64,000 bases of DNA from Variovorax paradoxus EPS (GTDB lineage Bacteria; Pseudomonadota; Gammaproteobacteria; Burkholderiales; Burkholderiaceae_C): the NCBI RefSeq assembly GCF_000184745.1, contig NC_014931.1, positions 1,736,001 to 1,800,000 of the forward strand, written 5' to 3'. The position numbers and the translations under genes are program-made. Below are positions 44,899-50,384 of this stretch, one piece after another. The notes under the pieces were generated by a model. It had not been told where the DNA came from. It made no database searches and saw only the letters and a program-made list of their open reading frames with translations. How positions within the stretch are numbered: position 1 is the stretch's first letter; each line of letters opens with the position of its first letter.

Positions 44899-46083
44899 AT
44901 GCCCACGCACATCCTCGTCGCCGGGGGCGGCATCGGGGGGCTGACCACGGCGCTGGCGCTTTCGCGGGGCCGGCACCGCGCCGATGTCTTCGAGCAGGCG
45001 GCGGTCTTCGGCGAGATCGGGGCCGGCGTGCAGCTCGGACCCAACGTCACGCGGCGCCTTCAACAACTGGACCTGGCCACCGGCCTCGCGAAGATCGCGG
45101 CGCGCCCCGATGCACTGGTGGTCCGCAGCGCCGGCAGCGATGCCGTGCTGGCCCGCCTGCCGCTGGGCGATGCGATGCAGCAGCGCTACGGCGCTCCCTA
45201 CTTCTGCGCACACCGTGCCGACCTGCATGCACTGCTGCTCGAAGCGGTGCGCACGCGCGGCACCGGCACGCTGGTGACGGCCGCGCAGATCAAGCAGGTC
45301 GAGACCAGCGACGACCTCGTGTGCGTCTCGAGCGCCGATGCCCGCGCCTGGGAGGGCGAGGCGCTTGTGGGCGCCGATGGTCTCTGGAGCATGGTGCGGC
45401 GTCAACTCGATACGCCCGCGGCTGCGGAGCCACCTCGCGTCACCGGCCACACCGCATGGCGCGCGCTGGCCTTGCAGTCCGACTTGCCCGCGGCATTGCG
45501 GCGCCAGCAGATCGATGTGTGGCTGGGCCCGCATCTCCACGCCGTGGCGTACCCGGTGCGCGGTGGCGACTGGCTCAACGTGGTGGTCATCGCCGAATCC
45601 GCACCGGCCGGCGATGCACGCGACTGGGACCAGTCCAGCAGCATCGCGGCCCTGCAGCAGGCCACGGGCCGCAGCGGCGGCGGCCTGCAGGCGTTGCTCG
45701 AAGCGATGCCCGGCTGGCGCGCCTGGTCGCTCAGCGACCGCGCGCCGTTGACCTCCGCCGCCGACATGGCGCACGAGCGCGTCGCGCTAGTGGGCGATGC
45801 GGCGCATCCGATGGTGCCGTACCTCGCACAGGGCGCTGGCATGGCGATCGAGGATGCGGTCGCGCTGGCCGAAGCATTGGGCGATGGCAGCGCGGCCGAG
45901 GTGCCCGCAGCCTTCGCGCGCTACGCCGAGGCGCGCTGGCAGCGCAATGCGCAGGTGCAGGCCCGCGCGCGGCGCAACGGCGAGGTCTTTCATGCAACGG
46001 GCGCGATGCGCCTGGGGCGCGACCTCGCGATGCGCACGCTCGGCGCGCGCTTGCTCGACCAGCCCTGGCTGTACGGCGGTTGA
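44899..46083 (+). CDS. FAD-dependent aromatic monooxygenase (salicylate hydroxylase-like)
   Basis: 394 residues from the ATG at 44899, 5 bases after the Cys-rich gene. Group A flavoprotein hydroxylase: ILVAGGGIGGLTTALAL at the N-terminus, the second FAD motif GDAAHPMVPYLAQGAG, and ALVGADGLWSMVR (DG motif). Close in type to salicylate or 3-hydroxybenzoate hydroxylases and UbiH-like enzymes; the substrate cannot be told. Co-oriented with feoAB but probably unrelated in function. It converges on the SUKH-like gene (16-base gap). Confidence 0.85.
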   Translation: MPTHILVAGGGIGGLTTALALSRGRHRADVFEQAAVFGEIGAGVQLGPNVTRRLQQLDLATGLAKIAARPDALVVRSAGSDAVLARLPLGDAMQQRYGAPYFCAHRADLHALLLEAVRTRGTGTLVTAAQIKQVETSDDLVCVSSADARAWEGEALVGADGLWSMVRRQLDTPAAAEPPRVTGHTAWRALALQSDLPAALRRQQIDVWLGPHLHAVAYPVRGGDWLNVVVIAESAPAGDARDWDQSSSIAALQQATGRSGGGLQALLEAMPGWRAWSLSDRAPLTSAADMAHERVALVGDAAHPMVPYLAQGAGMAIEDAVALAEALGDGSAAEVPAAFARYAEARWQRNAQVQARARRNGEVFHATGAMRLGRDLAMRTLGARLLDQPWLYGG

Positions 46084-46099: not shown

Positions 46100-47350
46100 T
46101 CAGAGCCTGAAGGTCTGCAGGTGTTCGATGCGTTCCGCCAGTCCTTCCGGCCCGAGGTAGTGCCCCAGCGAGCCATCGCGCACTTTCACCAATGTCGTTT
46201 CCAGTTCCGTCAGCATCGCATCGCGTTCCGCGACAAAGGCCGGCGGCACGTCGATGCCGGCTTCGGTGCAGGCATCGGCGATCAGGTGCGCGCTCGCGGG
46301 CGCACCGCATGCCACGCACTTGACGATAGCCGCCACGCTCGGCTCGGCGCCATTGGCCAGCAGCGCGCTCGTGAGTTCGGGCGCGATCTGGCCATCGACG
46401 TTGCGCAAGGCGTCGGCCGCCACCGGCGCGCCCGCACGCACCAAGGCCGCGGCCGCTGCGAAGGCACTCTGGCTCAACGCCACGTCAGTCGCGAGGGCGC
46501 TGCCTTGCTGCGGCCCGTCGAAGCTCACGCCCGAAGCCGCCAGATCGACCACCAGCGGCGCATCGTCGGTCGCGATCGCGTGGTGCAGCGCCGCGCGTGC
46601 GAGCGCTGAGTGACGGCGCAGCGTGCCGTCCGCGAGCGGCGTGCGCCAGTCGACCACGGCGCGGCAGTAGAAGGTGACCAGCTTGTCCATCAGGTCGAGG
46701 TCCAGCCCGTGGTCCTGATGGCGGTCGTCCAGGTACTGCAGCAGGGTCTGGCCCGAGAAGTAATCGCTCGTGGGGGCCAGCGGGTCTTCGTCGAGGTGCA
46801 ATGCGGCGAAGGCGCCTTGCAGGTCCGGTGCGATGGTGCTCAACGTGTCTTCGTGCAAGGCGTGCGTCCAGGCCGGCGGCAGGCCCTGCTTCCATGCGAT
46901 GACCCGGCCGTACGCCTCGCCGGGCTCGACCACGGCGTAGATGCGGTCGAGGTACTCGAAGCCGCCGAACGGCAGGTGCGTGAGCTTGCCGTTCCAGGGC
47001 GCGCCGTTCTCGGCAGCGGCGTCTTTGGCCAGCGCCTGCTCGTGCTCGATCCAGCCCTGCAGGTCGTGGTAGCCGTCGCTGCCGTCCCAGAAGAGTTCCG
47101 ACCAGCTCACGCTCTCGATGTTGCCGTTCATCGGCAGCGCAAGGTCGTAGTCGAGGCGCCCGCCCGCCGTCTCTTGCCACAACGCGACCAGTGCCTCGGG
47201 AATCGGTCCTGCGCAGAGGGCCTGCACGGCGGCGATCTGCTGTGCCGGCATCGGCGGCTGCGCATCGAAGATCACGCGGTCCGCGAACATCACGACGCCG
47301 TGTGCCCGCAAGGTGGAGATCTCGTCGGGTGAGAACCGGATGTTGTGCAT
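46100..47350 (-). CDS. SMI1/KNR4 (SUKH)-like protein with ankyrin-like repeats; possible retron accessory
   Basis: 416 residues from the ATG at 47350 (alternative 47377). Residues about 20-190 resemble the SMI1/KNR4 fold: IPEALVALWQETAGG, then LPFGGFEYLDRIYAV and GRVIAWKQG. Residues about 230-380 form helical pairs with ankyrin-like character (AALHHAIATDDAPLVVDLAA, AAAALVRAGAPVAADAL, ALLANGAEPSVAAIVKCVA). SUKH proteins often serve as immunity proteins or in defence loci. The gene is co-oriented 73 bases after the reverse transcriptase, so it may be the retron accessory or effector. No toxin gene is adjacent. Confidence 0.6.
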   Translation of the reverse strand: MHNIRFSPDEISTLRAHGVVMFADRVIFDAQPPMPAQQIAAVQALCAGPIPEALVALWQETAGGRLDYDLALPMNGNIESVSWSELFWDGSDGYHDLQGWIEHEQALAKDAAAENGAPWNGKLTHLPFGGFEYLDRIYAVVEPGEAYGRVIAWKQGLPPAWTHALHEDTLSTIAPDLQGAFAALHLDEDPLAPTSDYFSGQTLLQYLDDRHQDHGLDLDLMDKLVTFYCRAVVDWRTPLADGTLRRHSALARAALHHAIATDDAPLVVDLAASGVSFDGPQQGSALATDVALSQSAFAAAAALVRAGAPVAADALRNVDGQIAPELTSALLANGAEPSVAAIVKCVACGAPASAHLIADACTEAGIDVPPAFVAERDAMLTELETTLVKVRDGSLGHYLGPEGLAERIEHLQTFRL

Positions 47351-47423
47351 GGCAGTGGCCTCCGTCGTTGTTGCCAAAAATGTAGCGCTTTGCGCGGGTG
47401 TGGCAACCGGTACATGCGAGCGT

Positions 47424-48812
47424 TCAGCCTGTTGATTGCGAAACGACTGGCCATTCGATGCGTTCGAAGAGGCGCATCAGCCTCGCCTTGCGCGCCGGAT
47501 TGAACTGGCCGATCCACGCGATGTGGCCCAGGAGGTGGCCGCGGAAATCGGCGACCTTCGCGCGGTTCTGGCTCGCGGGGCCGTGCAGCACGCACTGATG
47601 CAGCACTGCTTTCAAACGGTCGAAGTCGGCGCGCGGCGTATTCGCTTTCTCGTTCACGACCACGCCTGTCACGCGCTGTTGGTGATGCCGCGGCATGCAA
47701 CGCACCTTGCGCGGATGAAGCGCGAAACCCTCGTCGGCCGAGATGCCATCGACCCAGGCACGCAGCGCGCTGAACCGTCCGCGCAGCGACGCGGGCCCCG
47801 AGAACACGAGGTCGTCCGCATAGCGCGTGTAGGTCGCGCCGAAGATCCACGCCAGCCCTTCGAGCCGCAGGTCGAGGCGAAAGGCGCACAGGTTCGCGAG
47901 CGCGGGCGAGCAGGGCGACCCCTGCGGCAGATGCGGCTCGGCCAGGCGCTTGGCGCCCATCCAGTCGAGCCCGCCGTCGTCGCGAAGGCGCTCGATCACC
48001 GCTGCCGACGTGCGGTGCGTGCACAGCGCGGTGAGAGCGCGCGCCACGCCCTCGGGATAGCCCAGCGTGCGCCACAGCGCATGCACACGCGAGGCGCGAA
48101 TGCTGGGAAAGAAGTCGCGCAGGTCGAAGCCGATCACCACCTCCTTGCCAACGTGCGCGGCCGCATGGCTCGCGACCGAGCGTTCCTGCACGAAGCCGTG
48201 GGCGGCCTCATGCACGGGCACCCGCTGCAGCAGGTCGTCGAGGATGCGACGCTGCGCACGTTTGAGGTCGGCCTTGGGAATCTCGAGCAACCGCAGACCG
48301 CCGAGGCGCTTGGGCTGCAACTGGTAGCGGTAGTGCGATGCGAGGCGAGGGCTCGATGCGTCGGGTGTACGGAAGGCCTGCGATGCGGCGGTGAGCCATG
48401 CGAGGCGGTCGGGTTCGAGTTCGAGCCATTGCGCAAGATCGGCCAGCGTGGGCAGCCGAGGCAAGGCGAAGTGATCGAGGCCCATCGGGCGCGGGAGCAT
48501 GTCGGCGGGACGCAGGATGAGCCTGCGGATGCGGGGCGGCTCGTCCTGTTCGAAGGCGAGTTCCAGCGCTGGCGTCTCGAGGATCGCCTGCGTCAGTCCG
48601 GGAAGATCGGTGCGCTCCCAAGTCGCGAGCGATCGCTTGCCGAGTTCTTCGGCCAGCAGTTTCAGCCACGGCAGGTTGACGCCAAGTGCCGCCTCGGCCC
48701 GCGCACGCAACGCATCCGGCGTGGTGCCGCCGGGCTGCCTCGCGTCGGCCAGCAGGGCATGCGCGAGGCCGCGTGCAATCCATTCCCTGTAGCTCGGTTC
48801 GCGCGTCGTCAT
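47424..48812 (-). CDS. Retron-type reverse transcriptase
   Basis: 462 residues from the ATG at 48812. The RT domain spans about 160-440: FDLRDFFPSI (229-238, first catalytic Asp), LPQGSPCSPALANL (295-308), catalytic TRYADDLVFSG (YADD at 331-334), then QRVTGVVVNEKANTPR (VTG at 381-383), a region-Y mark of retron RTs. The region-X NAxxH motif reads HAAAH (216-220), with Asn replaced by His. An N-terminal helical extension of about 150 residues is longer than in minimal retron RTs. No maturase or endonuclease domain, so not a group II intron. A structured non-coding segment lies 25 bases upstream. Confidence 0.88.
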   Translation of the reverse strand: MTTREPSYREWIARGLAHALLADARQPGGTTPDALRARAEAALGVNLPWLKLLAEELGKRSLATWERTDLPGLTQAILETPALELAFEQDEPPRIRRLILRPADMLPRPMGLDHFALPRLPTLADLAQWLELEPDRLAWLTAASQAFRTPDASSPRLASHYRYQLQPKRLGGLRLLEIPKADLKRAQRRILDDLLQRVPVHEAAHGFVQERSVASHAAAHVGKEVVIGFDLRDFFPSIRASRVHALWRTLGYPEGVARALTALCTHRTSAAVIERLRDDGGLDWMGAKRLAEPHLPQGSPCSPALANLCAFRLDLRLEGLAWIFGATYTRYADDLVFSGPASLRGRFSALRAWVDGISADEGFALHPRKVRCMPRHHQQRVTGVVVNEKANTPRADFDRLKAVLHQCVLHGPASQNRAKVADFRGHLLGHIAWIGQFNPARKARLMRLFERIEWPVVSQSTG

Positions 48813-48837
48813 GAAGGCGGTGAAGTGGAACGAAGGT

Positions 48838-49003
48838 GGCAACCGGCCCTTCAACCAGCCGGTGATGCGCCAGCTGCGCTGCGCGACAGCGCAGTCCCGC
48901 TCACGCGCCGAAATGTGTACCCATCCATCCACCGCGGGGGTGCCCCGCAGCACAAGGAAAGCGACGAATCGCTTGCCTTGTCGAGTCTTGAAGGTCCGGT
49001 GCC
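48838..49003 (-). ncRNA. Candidate retron msr-msd RNA
   Basis: 166 bases between kynA and the RT gene. The ends are complementary: GGCACCGGACCTTCAA (49003-48988, candidate a1) and TTGAAGGGCCGGTTGCC (48854-48838, candidate a2) pair over 15 bases with one mismatch and one bulge. Between them, on the minus strand: G48987 (possible branching G), a stem ACAAGG/CCTTGT plus AAGCGA/TCGCTT closed by TTCG (48981-48952), a GCGGGG-CAC-CCCCGC hairpin (48948-48934), and a long hairpin with CTGCGCTG/CAGCGCAG around TCGCG (48904-48862), the likely msd stem. Order, size and position match retron RNAs. Not confirmed by homology. Confidence 0.65.
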
Positions 49004-49033
49004 GCGGCGATTGTTGCACGCGGCCTGCGACGC

Positions 49034-49898: not shown

Positions 49899-50384
49899 TC
49901 ATCGCCAGACCACGGCGGTGTAGGAAGACAGGCCCATGCCGGATTCTTTCTTCGGATAGACGAAGCGCACGACCTCGTTCTTGCGCTTGAACTCCTGGTA
50001 GGTCTCGCCGCCCGGGATGCGGCCCTTGTCGGCCGGTGCGTAGCCCGCGGCGCGAGCTTCCTTCACGAGCACGTCGAAGACAGCCTTGTCGGTCGTCGAG
50101 AACTGGATGCTGTTTTCGCCGGCGCGGTTTTCCACATAGGTGGACTTCATGACGTTGGTGGTGTGGTCGCCCGCGAACTTGTCGTACTCGATCATGCTGA
50201 CCCACTCGGTCGTGGTCTTGTCCCGGTAAGAGAACCCCTGGCGCTTGATCTCCTGCCGGAAGGCGTCGGGAGACATGGCGACGAAGGCCTTGAGCTGGGG
50301 CAGGGTGAAGTTCGGCTGCTGCGCGAAGGCCGGGGCAGCCAGCATCAGGAGCGACGCGAAGAACGCGATCAATCGATGTTTCAT
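49899..50384 (-). CDS. Exported protein within the kyn operon
   Basis: 161 residues with a signal peptide ([20 protein letters not shown], cleavage after AFA). The mature part is charged, without cysteines, and contains [20 protein letters not shown]. Sits 13 bases after kynU and 16 bases before kynA, so it is surely co-transcribed with tryptophan catabolism genes. I know no role for a periplasmic protein in this pathway and do not recognise the family. Confidence 0.8.

Follow-up and report, generated by a model that had tools for sequence, protein, structure and literature searches.

The window analyzed here, a 64,000-nucleotide stretch of Variovorax paradoxus EPS DNA (NC_014931.1, positions 1,736,001 to 1,800,000), carries a reverse transcriptase (RT) gene directly preceded by a short non-coding segment, which raises the question of whether the two form a retron and, if so, what role this retron plays. 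An earlier note, made from the letters alone, had read the locus as an intact retron that makes msDNA and acts in phage defense. Our analysis leads to a narrower reading, to which we assign a probability of about 0.88: the locus is an intact retron to which no effector gene is linked, presumably producing msDNA.

The RT gene and the non-coding segment ahead of it

The RT gene (47424-48812) and the retron features described below are on the minus strand. The 222-base gap between this gene and the kynA side holds the 166-base non-coding segment (48838-49003), and 25 bases separate the latter from the RT gene downstream. Upstream of the retron lies kynA, encoding tryptophan 2,3-dioxygenase, and then the kynureninase and arylformamidase genes; downstream of the RT, on the same strand, lies an ORF of 425 codons (46100-47377) that we term SUKH-like, its match to SUKH-1 being sub-threshold. 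A −10-like hexamer, AACAAT (49010-49015, minus strand), is located 6 bases before the segment and may belong to a promoter; the sequence at this site is TACAAT in 12 of 18 Variovorax loci, and no full sigma-70 match was found ahead of the window RNA. Two further features were noted in the surroundings. Between kynA and the kynureninase gene, positions 49899-50384 encode a protein of 161 residues that matches nothing in Pfam, NCBIfam or PADLOC and for which no match was found in 7 of 14 relatives having kynA in the stretch compared. The tRNA-Gly that ARAGORN called at 45075-45166 is probably spurious; it lies inside a monooxygenase-like gene, in antisense orientation.

The segment is organized as the earlier note had described it, with paired ends, hairpins and a G following the 5′ arm. 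Its 5′ arm, a1 (GGCACCGGACCTTCAA, 48988-49003), and its 3′ arm, a2 (TTGAAGGGCCGGTTGCC, 48838-48854), pair end to end at 15 positions, interrupted by a single A.G mismatch and a single bulged T, and the G at 48987, directly after a1, is the presumed priming (branching) nucleotide. This G is preceded by CAA, unlike the TAGC, CAGC or GAGC contexts of known retrons. Next come the msr hairpins P1 (48952-48981), which is predicted in the window sequence and variable in relatives, and P2 (48931-48951), which has an invariant GGGG-NNN-CCCC core and is backed by covariation over 39 sequences. The msd template region (48855-48930) contains two covarying helices, with a stem at 48867-48908, and a conserved ACCNGCNGG box immediately ahead of a2. 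The assignment of the whole as an msr-msd RNA is based on covariation and on a match to covariance model R2 (see below) that, pads included, spans 48835-49006.

Taken from the window sequence alone, the evidence against chance was mixed. The best structure of the 166-base segment, whose ends were chosen for pairing, includes the a1/a2 stem and has a z-score of −4.42, with none of 200 shuffles as good, whereas the whole 222-base gap gave a z-score of −1.98, with 5 of 200 shuffles as good and a best structure that lacks a1/a2. Similarly, 8 of 500 gap shuffles reached the a1/a2 score under strict pairing, as did 88 of 100 when scoring was lax, with G-U pairs allowed and gaps cheap. No Rfam family matched the window at gathering thresholds. 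The RT frame runs open through the RNA in the window itself; the idea that the RNA is a coding part of a longer RT was rejected, as 7 of 12 Variovorax loci have a stop in this frame within the RNA. Additional copies of the RNA in the genome were also rejected, with weak partial matches alone found beyond the single full copy.

The RT is an intact protein of 462 aa, as judged by PADLOC profiles and dN/dS, and both motifs named in the earlier note are present in its frame: the catalytic YADD (47811-47822) is invariant in 42 aligned proteins, window included, and in the VTG of retron region Y (47664-47672) the T and the G are each at least 90% conserved in the same set. Region X reads HAAAH (48153-48167) in place of NAXXH and aligns with NATPH of Ec86; in the passages concerned, a review of retrons defines region X by NAXXH and reports the N as absent also from two of 16 validated retrons (PMC6868368). 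Both this departure and the CAA context of the G speak against the retron reading. By profile score, this RT falls among retron rather than other bacterial RTs: it scored 471.9 bits with the PADLOC profile RT_other, 448.8 with RT_outgroup and 318.9 with RT_XIII, against 36 bits for a group II intron RT profile and 30 for Drt2. Across the 42 proteins, many retron RT profiles matched at E ≤ 1e-20, with RT_other and RT_outgroup giving the lowest E-values. NCBIfam retron families scored 147-168 bits on the window RT, under their curated cut-offs, and the best matches among solved structures were retron RTs, Ec86 first.

Ahead of the part shared with Ec86, whose RT aligns only from profile position 109, the window RT has an N-terminal extension of about residues 1-105 (48498-48812). 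We found no known domain in this extension: Pfam gave no match for the window, and the PDB none that was meaningful; in one relative a sub-threshold Pfam match of 12.6 bits was obtained. We also measured selection over 15 loci, a set that excludes L011 and L013, whose frames are broken, and L012, which is distant. The dN/dS of the RT was 0.10-0.21 against 15 relatives, above that of kynA (0.04-0.12) and similar to that of the SUKH-like gene (0.07-0.28), and that of the extension alone was 0.08-0.41. The results show that the RT is under purifying selection.

Comparative evidence for the RNA

Given that the single-sequence evidence was mixed, we collected relatives of the RT and carried out a guided a1/a2 search on 50 RT loci, requiring a GGGG...CCCC anchor, which doubled as the core of P2, together with CAAG or CGAG. 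The a1/a2 score was at least 9.5 in 48 of the 50 loci; L085 scored 5.0 and L099 gave none, and covariance model R1 recovered both. Because the search required these anchors, the position of the G and the P2 core are partly built in for the 50 loci; this applies to the invariance of the G48987 position in the 39-sequence alignment, which was drawn from loci picked with the CAAG/CGAG anchor. A G after a1 is also present in L236 and L237, both found by the model.

The alignment, A1, comprises 39 of the 50 RNAs, near-duplicates (L001, L009, L013 and L101) being left out along with L083, L085, L087, L090, L092, L093 and L099, and the other 38 RNAs are 43-96% identical to that of the window. Over these 39 RNAs, a 33-pair structure had 91.7% of its cells paired, compared with 35-44% in slid controls, a comparison that favors the structure because it was derived from A1 itself. 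Two-sided changes occurred in 23 of the 33 pairs and amounted to 162 cells, compared with 39.8 in shuffles (sd 7.9), none of 500 reaching as high a value; the covariation expected in homologous loci under the earlier reading is thus present, and strong. Helix by helix, 9 of the 11 pairs tested in a1/a2 had two-sided changes, and 84.5% of the cells of this helix were paired. In P2, 98.3% of cells were paired over the 39 sequences; 3 of its 9 pairs changed on both sides and another 4 were invariant. The two msd helices, with 91.9% and 94.8% of cells paired, together had such changes at 11 of 13 pairs. As judged from these alignments, the RNA fold is maintained across relatives far beyond chance.

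Covariance searches gave a concordant picture. Model R2, built from 20 RNAs exclusively of genera other than that of the window, matched the window at 117.5 bits (E 1e-22), the next match scoring 14.7 bits. Model R1 was applied to 9 RT loci on which it had not been trained, two Burkholderia replicons among them, and in all 9 it detected the RNA ahead of the RT (47-110 bits). At E ≤ 0.05, R1 found nothing in 14 loci with no RT or an RT remnant, some of which may be the same strain twice, and nothing in 8 loci of a second, type XIII-like RT described below or in 80 viral RT loci. A reciprocal R1 scan of 300 genomes of the order, run with strict filters able to lose weak matches, returned 5 matches at E ≤ 1e-6, of which 3 were from the training set and 2 were new, and an RT homologue adjoins all 5. 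Thus an intact RT is joined to an msr-msd RNA that covaries, has the a1/a2 ends and places a G immediately behind a1, and we retain the earlier call of an intact retron; that a non-retron RT should have an inverted repeat upstream by chance, as the ease of single-sequence pairing in GC-rich DNA could suggest, is extremely improbable, being refuted by the covariation and the R2 match, with the reciprocal scan and the RT profiles also against it.

A partial R1 match of 27.6 bits (2562-2649) was also observed on a Tsukamurella tyrosinosolvens plasmid, L225, upstream of an RT of the same PADLOC class, and by eye the region 2500-2700 shows complementary RNA ends followed by a G. On the basis of this one locus, the RNA family would possibly extend into Actinomycetota.

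Distribution, inheritance and possible roles

Among 399 genomes of the family, 29 carry the RT at E ≤ 1e-80, and these represent 19 of 141 genera; of the 369 class genomes drawn, 4 do so at E ≤ 1e-70, the window's own included. Within the genus, 29 of 101 genomes have some RT at E ≤ 1e-8, and 17 by count have the orthologous lineage. Of 16 named loci, 13 from Variovorax and one from Polaromonas contain most of the RT, and 2 a C-terminal stub alone. The surroundings are stable in Variovorax: kynA precedes the RT in 12 of the 13 Variovorax RT loci (no kynA was found in the flank of L006, and that of L008 lies at a distance of 1.4 kb), and all 13 have the SUKH-like gene after the RT on the same strand (partial in L005, at a contig end), about 50-105 bases past the matched RT end where measured. 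RT distances correlate with those of the SUKH-like gene with r = 0.88 (66 pairs) and with those of kynA with r = 0.43 (55 pairs). Among the 30 best-matching SUKH-like gene loci, a choice that favors close relatives, 15 have the RT, in frame-broken pieces at L043 and L047, 2 have a stub and 13 have no RT match; in one of the 13, L044, a short RT trace is visible by eye. Of the 17 genus genomes that carry the RT lineage, 2 have it with a broken frame, and in 2 further genomes just a stub is left; the lineage is therefore dispensable. We read the inheritance of the retron, as it appears in these comparisons, as probably mostly vertical with repeated loss. A phage-borne element was considered and rejected: 0 of 6 matching phage records cover 80% of the query, and no RNA match was found in viral RT loci (best 80 of 194).

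In L041, L044 and L045, a common piece with a short inverted repeat (AGTCCAACAGA..TGTTGGA) follows kynA; the 5′ part of the retron is missing, and C-terminal remnants of the RT come next. The piece probably represents one ancestral deletion or replacement.

What this distribution means for function can be read in several ways. The retron may have a non-defense, housekeeping or regulatory role, its msDNA serving the cell, as has been suggested for myxobacterial retrons, which a 2019 review describes in the relevant passages as likely vertically inherited and poorly understood in their roles (PMC6868368). The stable position between kynA and the SUKH-like gene across Variovorax, a divergence like that of the SUKH-like gene, the diverse flanks elsewhere, many of them metabolic by eye, and the RNA's absence from the 80 viral RT loci are all in line with such a role. 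Yet the retron is patchy, with 17 of 101 genus genomes carrying it and repeated loss, and therefore an accessory function fits better than housekeeping; we hold this role to be a possibility, at odds below even.

Alternatively, the retron could be a self-contained defense system in which the msDNA keeps inactive an effector or sensor built into the RT as its N-terminal extension. Consistent with this, the extension is invariant or nearly so in parts over the 42 aligned proteins, is itself under purifying selection and matches no known domain, and RT-fused effectors exist in other retrons, PADLOC naming Toprim, TIR and protease classes, as is also reported in the portion consulted of a published account (PMC12405507). 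Against this, the extension is less conserved than the RT domain and no catalytic motif was seen in it, inheritance is largely vertical, and among the ten genes around the window retron no PADLOC family was matched at E ≤ 1e-5 except by the kynureninase, a weak cross-match to DndA and SspA (37 and 36 bits) of what is clearly a kynureninase. We thus entertain this explanation tentatively. On present evidence, the built-in effector and the non-defense role are about equally likely.

Proteins of the SUKH family are known as immunity proteins. In a tripartite anti-phage retron, the SUKH-like gene or another neighbor would encode an effector released on infection, and the constant position of the SUKH-like gene after the RT, its family and its divergence tracking that of the RT would all suit this arrangement. 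However, the SUKH-like gene is found in 85 of 101 genus genomes, compared with 17 for the RT lineage, and persists where the retron has been deleted or is missing. The gap ahead of it contains a promoter-like sequence of its own (47406-47379), whose TACATT hexamer is seen at most of the empty sites compared. The gene is not beside the RT in Polaromonas or in 20 other loci compared, and matches no PADLOC family. We therefore rejected the SUKH-like neighbor as the best reading and consider a tripartite system of this kind very improbable.

A wider comparison of neighbors gave no better candidate. Across 24 loci (3 Variovorax, Polaromonas and 20 others), with up to 6 kb on each side and RT-overlapping ORFs removed, no recurring family of neighboring ORFs, Variovorax-only ones aside, was present in more than 4 of the 24: 2 clusters (a translation GTPase gene and the frame antisense to it) occurred in 4 loci, another 7 clusters in 3 loci and 55 in 2 loci. 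The flanking ORFs listed for 22 loci, with the RT frame resolved in 19, are the diverse ones mentioned above, many of them metabolic by eye and others short and perhaps not genes. As far as gene order can tell, these data argue against a linked effector, although not against an unlinked one. Accordingly, the claim of phage defense made in the earlier note was not borne out, with no linked effector here or in relatives and a distribution that looks mostly vertical. We favor a self-contained complex of RT and msDNA, with a host or defense function, over a hidden partner.

The translation GTPase gene is located about 4.5 kb or nearer to the RT in 4 of the 24 loci (L127, L128, L133 and L142). By eye it is RF3-like in L127 and EF-G-like in L142, and these loci perhaps share an old site.

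Proposed mechanism and relation to known retrons

In characterized retrons, the RT uses a folded RNA, primes from a G and copies the msd, with RNase H taking part, according to the sections consulted of two published accounts (PMC6868368, PMC8989520). By analogy, we propose that the RNA (49003-48838) is transcribed just ahead of the RT, and that pairing of a1 with a2 would place the 2′-OH of G48987 next to where the template starts. The RT would recognize the msr, probably via the P2 hairpin, which is invariant, and via the ACCNGCNGG box that precedes a2, prime from G48987 and copy the msd from about 48855 inwards, with copying predicted to stop between the msd stem and P2. Host RNase H would remove the template, as it does in characterized retrons, leaving a branched RNA-DNA whose DNA, estimated from the anatomy at about 54-76 nt, would stay bound to the RT. 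The working unit would then be the RT with its N-terminal extension plus the msDNA. More speculatively, and with the odds against us, the locus may belong to an effector-less retron lineage kept vertically over Burkholderiales, and possibly on an Actinomycetota plasmid, in which the N-terminal extension is the effector and one gene plus one RNA make up a sensing device.

Retrons as a kind, and the RT profiles matched here, are already known. RT_other and RT_outgroup, the best PADLOC profiles for the window RT and likewise for its Burkholderia and Tsukamurella relatives, describe the RT alone, and the window RNA is without an Rfam family. In our survey of the literature on retrons and on Variovorax we found no description of this RNA; an earlier listing in Mestre 2020 is possible. 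Myxobacterial retrons are not known to have a linked effector, which they would share with the window retron. Compared through their published descriptions, as far as these were available in part, Mx162, Mx65, Sa163 and Ne144 resemble the window retron in having an N-terminally extended RT and vertical-looking inheritance (PMC6868368, PMC8867640), and Mx65 is also substituted at the N of NAXXH, like the HAAAH of the window RT. They differ in detail: the myxobacterial G contexts given there are CAGC or GAGC rather than CAA, and the transcript of Mx162 is 241 nt long compared with 166 nt for the window RNA, whose predicted DNA is far below 162 nt. The role of N-terminally extended retrons, for example the myxobacterial ones, is called poorly understood in the relevant part of the 2019 review (PMC6868368). 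With Ec86 (Eco1), the window retron shares an alignable RT domain, including regions X and Y, and the arrangement of a1/a2, priming G, msr hairpins and msd; it differs in having no adjacent NDT-type effector gene, a different RNA and the approximately 105 extra N-terminal residues.

The locus lends itself to a deletion test of its role: its covarying RNA is clearly bounded and accompanied by the RT, and sister strains offer naturally empty sites as well as remnants. As a compact retron RNA that comes with its own RT, it may also serve for DNA production in Burkholderiales.

Type XIII retrons provide the third-best profile of the window RT, and identity with them was rejected given 318.9 bits compared with 471.9 for RT_other; the type XIII-like RTs of Variovorax reach 530-532. 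In one publication, a PADLOC "retron type XIII" is listed for a Variovorax strain, with no RNA mentioned in the part consulted (PMC11953036). The type XIII-like scores of 530-532 bits come from two tested examples of a second, separate RT that we observed in Variovorax relatives (L023, L024, L031, L032 and L112-L115). This second RT is present in 15 of 101 genus genomes and, by a hypergeometric test that ignores kinship (3.5e-5), accompanies the studied retron beyond expectation, in 9 of its 17 carriers compared with 2.5 expected.
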